DNA of 64,000 bases from Dehalogenimonas formicexedens. Its GTDB lineage: Bacteria; Chloroflexota; Dehalococcoidia; Dehalococcoidales; Dehalococcoidaceae. The notes beneath the pieces were generated by a model. That model saw only the letters and a program-made list of their open reading frames with translations. It had not been told where the DNA came from and ran no database searches. The DNA lies in NCBI RefSeq assembly GCF_001953175.1, contig NZ_CP018258.1:1392210-1456209 (forward strand), read 5' to 3'. A program made the translations under genes and the position numbers. The stretch's first letter is position 1; each line of letters begins with the position of its first letter. Of the stretch, positions 7,803 through 45,036 are shown piece after piece.

Positions 7803-8469
7803 CCAGCAAATTATCGATACGGTCTCACTAGTATTAAGGTTAGTTTGGCCGGATGTCGCTTTATTTTCAACCCCTTATGGTAAAAAGGGGATTGAATTGG
7901 TTGAGAGACATATGCCTGATTCAATTCTTCTTGATCTTGGTCTCCCAGATATCGACGGATATGAGGTATTAAAACAAATACGTGCCTTTACGAGTATCCC
8001 GGTAATTGTAATTACAGTGCGAGATGAAGAGATATCATTGATTAAAGCTTTCGAGATGAATGCGGATGACTATCTCATCAAACCTTTTAGACAAATGGAA
8101 TTGATAGCAAGACTAAAATCTGCGATGAAAAAACGTTCTTTTTTTGAAGAGGATCTCACGATATCATGCAACAATATCCACTATGGTTCTTCCATCAATG
8201 AGGTTTACATTGGGAATATCAAGCGGGAACTGACCTCTACGGAAGGTAGGTTGTTGTACCACCTGCTAAAAAAGGCGGGAAAGATCATAACCAAGGTTGA
8301 GCTTGCTGAAATGATTTGGGGTGAATTCATTCCAGGTTCCTCAGAAAATATTAAAAATTATATATGCCGTTTACGGAAAAAAATTGAAGATGATCCCAAT
8401 AACCCCAAAATTATTGTCAGTCGCAGGGGCATAGGATACACTATCCCTCTATCACGTAATTTCACCTAA
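7777..8469 (+). CDS. OmpR/PhoB-family response regulator
   Basis: 230 residues. The receiver domain (about 1-115) has the acidic pair Glu7-Asp8-Asp9, the phospho-acceptor Asp53 in LLDLGLPD, a conserved Thr in ITVRDE and Lys in LIKPF. A winged-helix DNA-binding domain (about 130-228) ends in SRRGIGYTI. The GTG at 7777 gives the classic MKVLIIEDD start with AAAAGG six bases upstream. An ATG at 7759 is also in frame. Either way it overlaps the end of the kinase gene, so the two are translationally coupled and form a cognate pair. Likely targets are the neighbouring rdh promoters, by inference from position. Confidence 0.9.
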   Translation: MKVLIIEDDQQIIDTVSLVLRLVWPDVALFSTPYGKKGIELVERHMPDSILLDLGLPDIDGYEVLKQIRAFTSIPVIVITVRDEEISLIKAFEMNADDYLIKPFRQMELIARLKSAMKKRSFFEEDLTISCNNIHYGSSINEVYIGNIKRELTSTEGRLLYHLLKKAGKIITKVELAEMIWGEFIPGSSENIKNYICRLRKKIEDDPNNPKIIVSRRGIGYTIPLSRNFT

Positions 8470-42196: not shown

Positions 42197-42439
42197 TCAG
42201 ACCCGATTCGCTTTCAATAGCCGTATCAACTCTTTCTTGTCGGGAACCCTGCCGGAAACGATGACCTTCTCGTTCACTACCAGGCCCGGCGTCATGGTGA
42301 TGGGGTAAGTCATGATGTCCTGGAGTTCGGAGACCTTGGTGATCTCGGCATCGACGCCGAGTTCGTTAACCGCTTCACGGGTGACGGCCTCCAGGGTTTT
42401 GCACTTGGCACAGCCTGTCCCAAGGATCTTGATCTGCAT
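42197..42439 (-). CDS. Small thioredoxin-fold protein with CxxC (TM0996/MTH895 type)
   Basis: 80 residues, MQIKILGTGCAKCKTLEAV start, CAKC redox motif, cis-Pro in TMTPGLVVNEKVI. This is the redox-active small thioredoxin family that is often next to COG0701 permeases. The second ATG (42439) is chosen for its distance from the AAGGAG site; the first (42445) is too close. Last gene of the permease operon. It is probably the electron donor or metal(loid)-handling partner of the permease. Confidence 0.88.
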   Translation of the reverse strand: MQIKILGTGCAKCKTLEAVTREAVNELGVDAEITKVSELQDIMTYPITMTPGLVVNEKVIVSGRVPDKKELIRLLKANRV

Positions 42440-42450
42440 TGCCATTCTCC

Positions 42451-43545
42451 TTACAGGATATAGTTGAACAGGTACCCGGTGACTATTATACCGGTCGCCA
42501 CGACGCCGATGAATATCGCCAGCAGCCTGGGCTTGAGCACCTTACGCAGGATGACCATCTCCGGCAGCGACAGGCCGACCACCGCCATCATAAAGGCTAG
42601 GGAGGTTCCCAAAGCAGCGCCTTTCTCCATCAGGGCCTGGACGATGGGCACCACGCCGGCGGCATTGGAATACACCGGTACTCCGATAAGCACCGCGGCC
42701 GGCACGCTCCACCAGGCGTTTTTGCCCATGAACGAAGCCAGGAAGTCCTGGGGCACATAGCCGTGGATGAAAGCCCCCACCGCAATACCACCCAGGAGAT
42801 AAGGCCAGACCTTGCCGACAATATCCCGCACCGCCTGGAGGCCGTACTGCGCCCTCTCCTCAAAAGTGAGGGTCTCGCCCGGTATGGCGTTTGCGCCCGT
42901 TGCGCGGCGCTGCCGCACCCAGTCTTCGATGTAGCGTTCCAGGCTGAGCTTACCGATGACCCAGCCGGCGGTGATGGCGATAACCAGTCCGGAACCGATG
43001 TACAGCAGGGCGATCTTCCAGCCGAAGAGGCCGTAGAGAAGGACCAGCGCCACTTCGTTGATCATCGGCGAGGCAATCAGGAAAGACAGGGTGACGCCCA
43101 GCGGGATGCCGGCCTCGACGAAACCGATGAAAAGAGGGCAGGCTGAACAGGAACAGAACGGGGTGACGATACCCAGCCCGGCTGCCATGGTATTGCCCAC
43201 CAGTTCGCGTTTGCCGGCAAGAAAGGCCCGGGTGCGTTCCGGGCTGAAGAAGGAACGTACGATGCCGATCCCGAAAATGATGAGCACCAGGAGCATCAGC
43301 ACCTTGGGGGCGTCGTAGAGGAAAAAAGCCACGGCGCTGCCGAACCGGCTTGTTTCATCCAGCCTGAACAGATCGAAGGTGACGAAGTCGGCGGCCGGTT
43401 TCAACCAGTAGTAAATCAAAATCCAGGCAACCAGCCCAAGCCCCAACCACCAGGCCAGTCGCCCTGGCCGGGCCGCCCGGACCGGCGCCGGTGAGTTACC
43501 GGGACCGCAGTCGCAGCCTATATCGCACTTTTCTTCGTGAGCCAT
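42451..43545 (-). CDS. COG0701 permease (DUF318/ArsP-like), full length
   Basis: 364 residues with about eight helices and a cysteine-rich N-terminus (CDIGCDCG). The two repeated halves contain GIVTPFCSCSACPLFIGF and VPVYSNAAGVVPIV-type segments. The Cys-Ser-Cys-Ser-Ala-Cys in the first half is characteristic of this permease family, whose ArsP members export trivalent organoarsenicals. The substrate here is not known. Followed by the thioredoxin gene after 11 bp. Confidence 0.88.
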   Translation of the reverse strand: MAHEEKCDIGCDCGPGNSPAPVRAARPGRLAWWLGLGLVAWILIYYWLKPAADFVTFDLFRLDETSRFGSAVAFFLYDAPKVLMLLVLIIFGIGIVRSFFSPERTRAFLAGKRELVGNTMAAGLGIVTPFCSCSACPLFIGFVEAGIPLGVTLSFLIASPMINEVALVLLYGLFGWKIALLYIGSGLVIAITAGWVIGKLSLERYIEDWVRQRRATGANAIPGETLTFEERAQYGLQAVRDIVGKVWPYLLGGIAVGAFIHGYVPQDFLASFMGKNAWWSVPAAVLIGVPVYSNAAGVVPIVQALMEKGAALGTSLAFMMAVVGLSLPEMVILRKVLKPRLLAIFIGVVATGIIVTGYLFNYIL

Positions 43546-43558
43546 GAGGTCATTGCTT

Positions 43559-44143
43559 TCATGATGCGGGTTGCTTGATCCCGCCCGGCGGCTGCTTTTT
43601 GGGTTCCTTGGCCGGCGCCACCTCGTAAACCTCGAAGTGCTTGCCTTTCAGGTAACGCTCCATGATGAAACCGATGCCGATAAACAGCGGCAGTGTAATT
43701 AGTGTCCGTACCAGGGTAAACTGGATGCCCAGGTAACCGATCTCGATGCCCAGCATCGGGATCTTCATCGAAGAGAAAGCCCCAAGGTAGATGAACAGGT
43801 TGCGTACGCTGATGCCTTTTTTCCACAGGACATAAGCCACCGGAAAAGCGCCGTACAGCGGGCCGGCCTGGAGCATGGCCAGCAGGACGACCAGGGCGAT
43901 GCCTTTGACGCCGGACTCATGGCCGATATGCTTCTGGACTTGTTCCTTGGGCAGCCAGACATCGAACAGTCCGACGACAATGAAGATGAACGGCACGAAA
44001 GAGATCATTTCTATCAGCGACACCCGGAAATTGGTGAACACCGTCTTCCCGGGATCGAAACCGATGGCGAACGATGCGGCGGTCACGAGGAGGAAAGCCG
44101 CCACCCAAAGCCAGGCCTGGTACTTCTTAAAAAGTATCGTCAC
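43559..44143 (-). CDS. Half-size COG0701-like permease subunit
   Basis: 194 residues with five helices and a basic, proline-rich tail. The segment VKGIALVVLLAMLQAGPLYGAFPVAYVLWKKG corresponds to the second half of a COG0701 permease. The metal-binding-type cysteines are absent. It overlaps the previous half-size gene by 4 bp, so the two products likely form one split transporter. Confidence 0.78.
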   Translation of the reverse strand: MTILFKKYQAWLWVAAFLLVTAASFAIGFDPGKTVFTNFRVSLIEMISFVPFIFIVVGLFDVWLPKEQVQKHIGHESGVKGIALVVLLAMLQAGPLYGAFPVAYVLWKKGISVRNLFIYLGAFSSMKIPMLGIEIGYLGIQFTLVRTLITLPLFIGIGFIMERYLKGKHFEVYEVAPAKEPKKQPPGGIKQPAS

Positions 44144-44622
44144 AAGATGACTCCGATCAGAAGACCGATGGCGATGGCAGCAAAGAAATTAAGCACGTTG
44201 CGTATGACGGCCGCCTGCCTCCCCAGGTACTTGATCTCCAAAGGCAGCGTGACCACGCCCACCATCATCAATGTTGTCATGAAAGTTCCCACCACGGCGT
44301 AGCTGGCCCCCTGCTGCAGCAACCCGGCGGCGATCGGGTAAGAGATAAAAGCAGGTATGAGTGTGATTGAGCCGACCACGGCGGCGATGGCAAAACCCAG
44401 CAGCCCGGACCCCGCCCCCAGGTAATGCTGGATATCATCGGGCGAGATCAGATAAAGGACAACGGAAACGATGATCAGGATGTTCAAAAAGGGCAGCAGC
44501 ATGCGTGAAAACATCTGCCAGCCGCGTTTGAAACCGGCGATGGTCTTCTGCCGGTCCATGGCGAAGGACAGCGCCGACAGAATCAAGGCGACGGAGATGA
44601 AGATAATGGCGTTATTGCTCAT
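44140..44622 (-). CDS. Half-size COG0701-like permease subunit
   Basis: 160 residues with four to five helices from the ATG at 44622. GSITLIPAFISYPIAAGLLQQGASYAVVG matches the first half of the same permease family. The start lies 11 bp inside the end of the upstream selenoprotein-like gene, so translation is coupled. The upstream in-frame extension to 44685 runs through that gene and is not used. Pairs with the next gene. Confidence 0.78.
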   Translation of the reverse strand: MSNNAIIFISVALILSALSFAMDRQKTIAGFKRGWQMFSRMLLPFLNILIIVSVVLYLISPDDIQHYLGAGSGLLGFAIAAVVGSITLIPAFISYPIAAGLLQQGASYAVVGTFMTTLMMVGVVTLPLEIKYLGRQAAVIRNVLNFFAAIAIGLLIGVIL

Positions 44623-44926
44623 TAGCCATCGCTGTTTCAACGGATTTGGTGATTTTGTCCGGGACCTCGGTACTGTGAGAAACAACTTTACCGCCCAGGG
44701 TCACCATGGGAAGAACCCGGAGGCCCCGGGCATTGAACAGATCAATCGCCTCGCGGTAGTTTTCTTCGGATCCATCGATACCTTCGATATCGACAATTGT
44801 TGGCGTGGTTCCGAAAGCCTTATTCAACTGTTTCGAAATGGCGTCAATCGTCGACGACGATTGTCCCACCGGGTTTCAACAGCCCCTTCGGGGTAAGAAA
44901 ATAAGAGCCGTCTCTTGAGCCGTCAT
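44612..44926 (-). CDS. Thioredoxin-fold selenoprotein candidate (Cys-Sec motif, in-frame TGA)
   Basis: Reading from the ATG at 44926, which has a strong GGGAGG site five bases away, gives ALIFLPRRGC, then TGA (44876-44878), then NPVGQSSSTIDAISKQL to a normal stop: 104 residues with codon 17 as TGA. The product is a complete thioredoxin-like fold: strand, Cys-Sec at the helix start, and cis-Pro in LRVLPMVTLGG. Without the first 19 codons the protein would begin inside helix 1 and have no redox residue. A SECIS-like hairpin starts 12 nt after the TGA. First gene of the permease operon. If TGA is a true stop, translation would restart at GTG 44869, which has poor spacing. Confidence 0.75.
44845..44863 (-). 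promoter_or_regulatory. Candidate bacterial SECIS hairpin
   Basis: On the minus strand an 8-bp perfect stem CAATCGTC/GACGATTG with loop GTC, starting 12 nt after the in-frame TGA. Loop start is about 20 nt from the TGA and its first base is G, which fits bacterial SECIS elements that recruit SelB. Confidence 0.6.
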
Positions 44927-45008
44927 TCAGCCTCCCTGAGATGATTATTCATATCGGAAACGAAACACTATTTTGTAAAAAGAGTTGCGGAACTATCTCT
45001 ATATGCGC

Positions 45009-45036
45009 ATTTTAGCATATTGACCGGACATTTCAA
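45009..45036 (-). promoter_or_regulatory. Promoter of the selenoprotein/permease operon
   Basis: On the minus strand TTGAAA (45031-45036), 16-bp spacer and TAAAAT (45009-45014). An inverted repeat ATATGC-N8-GCATAT (45001-45006 with 45015-45020) overlaps the -10 and is a possible repressor site. The inferred leader is about 75 nt. Confidence 0.5.

Follow-up and report, generated by a model that had tools for sequence, protein, structure and literature searches.

The window, by which we mean the whole 64,000-nucleotide stretch of DNA analysed, carries on its minus strand a short gene interrupted by an in-frame UGA and followed by three permease genes and a gene for a small thioredoxin-like protein. 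The features of the locus, with the basis for each in brackets, are as follows.

45009..45036, minus strand: possible sigma-70 promoter, TTGAAA-16-TAAAAT, with an extended -10 (consensus scan alone)
44932..44937, minus strand: ribosome-binding site GGGAGG 5' of the ATG (direct reading of the sequence)
44612..44926, minus strand: selenoprotein gene, 104 aa, Sec as residue 17, stop TAA (translation with UGA as Sec, and homologues)
44876..44878, minus strand: in-frame UGA, codon 17, very probably read as selenocysteine (one alignment column in 9 of 9 copies)
44845..44863, minus strand: SECIS hairpin CAAUCGUC-GUC-GACGAUUG, 8 bp (stem identical in 9 of 9 copies, energy, rarity in the genome)
44140..44622, minus strand: half-length ArsP_1 permease, 160 aa (Pfam ArsP_1; 160-aa orthologues in five relatives)
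43559..44143, minus strand: second half-length ArsP_1 permease (Pfam ArsP_1, orthologues)
42451..43545, minus strand: ArsP_1 permease, 364 aa (Pfam ArsP_1; a close orthologue in L014 and distant ones elsewhere)
42197..42445, minus strand: MTH895/ArsE-type thioredoxin-like protein (TIGR00412, over the cut-off)

Purine-rich sites are also found 5' of the ATG in the homologues. As for the promoter, the sigma-70 consensus scan returned one match where 0.5 were expected by chance. When UGA is translated as Sec, 44926-44612 (minus strand) encodes MTAQETALIFLPRRGCUNPVGQSSSTIDAISKQLNKAFGTTPTIVDIEGIDGSEENYREAIDLFNARGLRVLPMVTLGGKVVSHSTEVPDKITKSVETAMANEQ, with a single in-frame UGA and a C16-U17 pair; standard table 11 yields at this locus a GTG-started ORF of 85 aa. 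The last codons of the selenoprotein frame contain the ATG (44622) of the first permease. A 181-aa form of this permease with a TTG start was rejected in favor of the 160-aa start at 44622, which is common to the homologues.

The hairpin, CAATCGTC-GTC-GACGATTG as DNA, begins 12 nt 3' of the UGA. Its stem is formed by 44863-44856 and 44852-44845, and its loop (44855-44853, minus strand) opens with G-U, 20 nt after the UGA. The hairpin alone has an energy of -8.1 kcal/mol, and the 66-nt fold around it gave z = -2.5 against shuffles. The bacterial SECIS model (PMC13188914) specifies a loop of 3-9 nt with G in the first two positions, a stem of 4-16 bp, a spacing of 16-37 nt and an energy criterion, which we applied as a threshold of <= -7.5 kcal/mol. 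All of these are satisfied (loop GUC or GGA, 8 bp, 20 nt, -8.1 kcal/mol). Comparable hairpins occurred at only 0.4% of the 4349 UGA triplets in the sequence examined from the window genome. Within the window, 44876-44878 is the only hairpin-bearing UGA with both an in-frame upstream ATG and at least 80 open codons beyond, and the window genome holds two exact UGA-hairpin sites of this kind, both within the selenoprotein family. A search with Rfam RF00031 was uninformative, as there was no match in any control genome.

A homologue is encoded in each of the eight genomes of the genus, inferred to be Dehalogenimonas, that we examined; the window genome has two copies, making nine in total, and every copy has exactly one internal UGA, always in the same alignment column. 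CAAUCGUC-NNN-GACGAUUG is identical in all nine, the only exceptions being two bases of the window copy's loop. The codons CAA, TCG, TCG, ACG and ATT of the hairpin stretch are each used in 9 of 9 copies, with no synonymous change in the stem; invariant residues elsewhere in the family mostly use two or three codons, and the other family proteins show an identity of only 37-67% with the first sequence of the alignment. The window copy has the sole replacement in the hairpin stretch, E to S, which alters only the two free loop bases and leaves the stem and the first loop G intact. Conservation of the hairpin exceeds what the protein sequence demands. We made no covariation test because the stem is invariant. 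With a SECIS that hardly varies across diverged proteins, the family lends itself well to testing the rules for bacterial SECIS elements.

The genes for the selenocysteine machinery, selC (the tRNA-Sec, identified with ARAGORN), selD, selA and selB, are consecutive in the window genome. SelD has an in-frame UGA of its own in the catalytic loop (MSNKRLTEYSAYSGUAAK) and requires readthrough; at least one established selenoprotein therefore uses the machinery. In the selD gene (L002 6736-7779; G000:C1:2056735-2057778), where Sec lies in SGUAAK, the standard ORF call starts too late, at a TTG 3' of the UGA. It has been reported that selCDAB and a Sec-containing formate dehydrogenase occur in all analysed Dehalogenimonas genomes (PMC13390414) and that the selenoproteins of D. 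alkenigignens include selenophosphate synthase and formate dehydrogenase (PMC4918011). In both papers, words beginning with "arsen" are absent.

Could the UGA be a true stop, leaving either a pseudogene or an 85-aa protein made from the downstream GTG? The table 11 ORF and the standing of the window copy as the most divergent of the family speak for this. Against it, nine copies retain this UGA, their frame is intact both before and after it, the hairpin is fixed, the codons 5' of the UGA encode a conserved strand, and the Sec machinery is present. Moreover, the downstream GTG is found at its place only in the two copies of the window genome (the window copy and L011), and the other seven have no start codon there. 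We regard the absence of recoding as very improbable. That a general suppressor or an altered genetic code puts a different amino acid at the UGA would also be compatible with a frame open through it, but can be almost wholly dismissed. UGA is the terminal stop of two homologues (L004 and L010), so that it also serves as a stop in these genomes; in addition, tRNA-Sec, selA, selB and selD are encoded, and the readthrough site coincides with the SECIS hairpin.

The recoding signal, the Sec machinery and the conservation are thus shown computationally. The presence of Sec in the protein is inferred, as there are no proteomics or 75Se data; nevertheless, we consider decoding of UGA 17 as selenocysteine very likely, and close to certain. 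SelB and Sec-tRNA would decode the UGA, guided by the hairpin at 44863-44845. A preliminary description, made from sequence alone, had already proposed that the UGA is read as selenocysteine, citing a GGGAGG site and ATG upstream, Cys16-TGA17 in the joined product, and a perfect 8-bp hairpin with a G-starting loop 12 nt after the TGA. All three held on direct reading or translation, and the proposal itself is supported by the sel genes, all four of which it had suggested looking for, by the UGA aligned in 9 of 9 copies, and by agreement of the region, as it had advised checking, with the published SECIS model. Its expectation that gene callers would give a truncated 85-aa protein is borne out by table 11. 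It had named two kinds of homologue that would refute it: none of the homologues ends at the TGA, and 7 of 9 cannot start at the downstream GTG. Its Cys-Sec pair held only in part, the Cys being directly before Sec in seven copies and at -4 in the other two (L010 and L011). Finally, it had asked for homologues with Cys or Sec at the TGA; all nine carry UGA, and neither 400 Chloroflexota genomes nor GTDB-wide pattern scans yielded a version with Cys.

Besides Sec, the invariant positions of the family are a Pro near the N terminus, the Pro at +2, a GQSS.TI stretch, and a loop LP with the Gly that follows. Nothing outside the genus came near the family scores in the 400 Chloroflexota genomes, where the weak matches were mostly fragments. 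Among the longer ones, G002 and a match within G039 proved to be ArsD, and G309, directly before an ArsA-like gene, resembles ArsD. Sec in the ArsD of G066 and G039 was also rejected, the UGA there being the normal stop. Two GTDB-wide pattern scans, with the single protein and then with the alignment, found no relative; this negative is weak because near relatives of the window genome were possibly left out and the patterns were short. The plasmid collection gave no family match. By name or by Sec motif, we could match the family to none of the 119 prokaryotic selenoprotein families in the 2026 catalogue (PMC13188914), and no selenoprotein model of NCBIfam (June 2026 release) matched it over the cut-off, the only hit being TsoC with one member (E 0.074, 13 vs 45 bits). 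We found no description of the family in the literature searched, subscription journals and RefSeq annotation being outside its scope. The family is so far known from this genus alone, and we file it as a new selenoprotein family, one that standard annotation would truncate or drop. Its hosts are organohalide-respiring bacteria, of interest for the clean-up of chlorinated solvents. The family tree is unresolved save for one pair, and the window copy (44612-44926) forms by far its longest branch.

The fold class is likewise shown computationally. AlphaFold2 gave a thioredoxin-like model (pLDDT 84.6, pTM 0.75), which supports the thioredoxin-like fold first proposed. The best Foldseek matches in the PDB were a glutaredoxin, ArsD (3ktb, 3mwh and 3kgk) and 1xg8, which we take to be DUF1462, with E of 0.001-0.006; the ArsD structures were tied with other thioredoxin folds, and VIA-align (Z up to 7.7) also left many thioredoxin-fold proteins tied. 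At the sequence level, genuine ArsD proteins were among the best matches outside the family. Pfam ArsD (PF06953) matched 5 of 9 members, all below the curated cut-off (best 8.8e-4, 20.0 vs 27 bits). A profile-profile comparison with 15 ArsD sequences gave a probability of 87.7% and E of 3.4e-6 (one pair compared), with the Sec column on Cys18 of ArsD. Of the As(III) site of ArsD, Cys12, Cys13 and Cys18, the family retains just the Cys18 column, occupied by Sec, and has no Cys12-Cys13 pair. Because neither the cut-off nor the Cys12-Cys13 pair is met, we do not claim membership of ArsD. The family resembles ArsD (PF06953, NF033727) in its size and ars-operon location, in a reactive residue that aligns with Cys18 and precedes a Gly/Ser/Asn-Pro step, in the LP loop with the following Gly, and in a predicted thioredoxin-like fold, although other thioredoxin folds match it equally well. 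It differs in the residues and score just given and in coexisting with true ArsD in two genomes, the only two of the eight in which an ArsD gene was found, where ArsA adjoins it.

Thioredoxin_3 matched five of the nine members below its curated cut-off (best E 2.7e-5; best score 24.5 vs 24.8 bits, over the C-terminal half only), some members matching it as well as or better than ArsD. With Thioredoxin_3/MTH895-ArsE (PF13192, TIGR00412, including the selenoproteins Sec.1 and Sec.2), the family shares the thioredoxin-like fold and the cis-Pro half; a member lies in the same cluster as the selenoprotein, and Sec forms of PF13192 have been catalogued. The motif differs, however: instead of CxU or UxC, the family has U-x-P, and its Cys lies at -1 or -4. 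DUF1462 (PF07315, 1xg8) has a similar fold and is weakly similar in sequence to two members along almost their entire length, but the family stays below its cut-off (18.9 vs 25 bits), and DUF1462 is not known to contain Sec.

In every one of the seven other genomes, the selenoprotein gene comes immediately after a gene for ACR3 arsenite efflux (scoring above the cut-off of TIGR00832), with less than 100 bp between the two matches. These loci also encode ArsR, two half-length ArsP_1 permeases, a 342-364-aa ArsP_1 permease and an MTH895/ArsE-type thioredoxin, in combinations that vary by locus, with ArsD and ArsA at two of them. In the window genome the selenoprotein gene heads the permease and ArsE part of the set, without a linked ACR3. 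This genomic linkage is shown, and corrects the preliminary description, which had spoken of a permease operon: the counterpart in the relatives is an arsenic-resistance operon. That description was also incomplete, missing both the arsenic context and the resemblance to ArsD. The SAO and Tso selenoprotein systems (SaoE, TsoC, TsoR) similarly group selenoprotein genes with transporters, and SaoE is the best NCBIfam match of the 364-aa permease, below the cut-off (139 vs 325 bits); however, no SAO or Tso model matches the family over its cut-off, and the family occurs in an ACR3-type ars context. The two consecutive half-length ArsP_1 permeases are kept as a pair (window 43559-44622, L013, L014, L016, L018 and L019), and it is possible that they work as a split transporter. 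It is equally only a possibility that the long branch of the window copy reflects a change of function after departure from the ACR3 operon.

On balance, though by no wide margin, we favor the view that the gene encodes a small thioredoxin-fold selenoprotein that handles arsenic in ars operons. This role is inferred, there being no arsenic-binding or expression data. Besides the conserved LP loop, the product has an N-terminal Cys/Sec site, at which the Cys thiolate and the Sec selenolate would capture a trivalent arsenical, either arsenite or an organoarsenical. The protein would then hand this arsenical on to the efflux permeases, in the way that ArsD delivers arsenite to ArsA. That it binds arsenic, that it supplies the permeases and that it is remotely related to ArsD are all inferences. 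In their favor are the ACR3 gene immediately before it in all seven other genomes, the proximity of ArsR, ArsP_1, the ArsE-type thioredoxin, ArsD and ArsA, and the ArsD matches from Pfam, the profile-profile comparison, Foldseek and the search outside the family. Against them, similarity to ArsD is under every curated cut-off and its Cys12-Cys13 pair is not conserved; ArsA, the partner of ArsD, was seen at no more than two loci; the Cys close to Sec has no fixed position; ACR3 is unlinked to either copy in the window genome, where one copy stands apart from arsenic genes; and Thioredoxin_3 competes with ArsD as the nearest match of some members.

Alternatively, the selenoprotein may be a thiol-disulfide reductase of the glutaredoxin or thioredoxin type, which keeps the permeases or other partners reduced without carrying arsenic. 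This remains possible. The fold with its LP loop, the weak Thioredoxin_3 matches, a single weak glutaredoxin match (to the window protein), and the fact that redox proteins make up most known selenoproteins (PMC13188914) are in line with it. The lack of a conserved CxxC, CxxU or UxxC motif, the strict linkage to ACR3 and the presence in the cluster of a separate ArsE-type thioredoxin are not. An arsenate reductase in place of ArsC is a less likely alternative, which we consider improbable. The gene comes directly after ACR3, a common position of arsC; no PF03960 ArsC is present in any of the eight genomes; and Sec-containing arsenate reductases have been catalogued (PMC13188914). However, Pfam and NCBIfam scans revealed no similarity to ArsC families (no PF03960 match among the nine members), the family has no invariant Arg, and PF01451 proteins, which include thioredoxin-coupled ArsC, are encoded in seven of the eight genomes, away from the selenoprotein locus.

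If the arsenic-handling reading is preferred, a bolder form of it can be entertained, as no more than a possibility: a selenium-based arsenic chaperone of ArsD ancestry, with Sec in place of an As(III)-binding Cys, that would deliver arsenite or methylarsenite directly to the ACR3 and ArsP permeases with no part played by the ArsA ATPase. If this is true, selenium would coordinate arsenic directly as a step of bacterial resistance. The family would link selenium to arsenic resistance. The chemical antagonism of selenium and arsenic is well known in animals; we found no description of a dedicated selenium-arsenic protein in bacterial ars operons in the literature searched (subscription journals were outside its scope).

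Several further observations were made. The second copy in the window genome (L011 1483-1833; L012 around 7840-8200) has its Cys at -4 and not at -1, and is without adjacent arsenic genes. The sole ACR3 of that genome (L086 6174-7259) stands alone after an rpsT-like gene, with no selenoprotein beside it. At L018 6039-6950 (minus strand), a DUF2703-ArsD fusion protein adjoins ArsA. The dcpA island of D. formicexedens NSZ-14 is reported to start at 1,384,297, delineated by repeats downstream of ssrA (PMC13390414), and the tmRNA at G000:C1:1383942-1384296 ends one base before that start, from which we infer that the window genome is very probably that of this strain. If the genome is that of D. 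formicexedens NSZ-14, positions 1 to about 15050 of the window lie within this published island (1,384,297-1,407,259).
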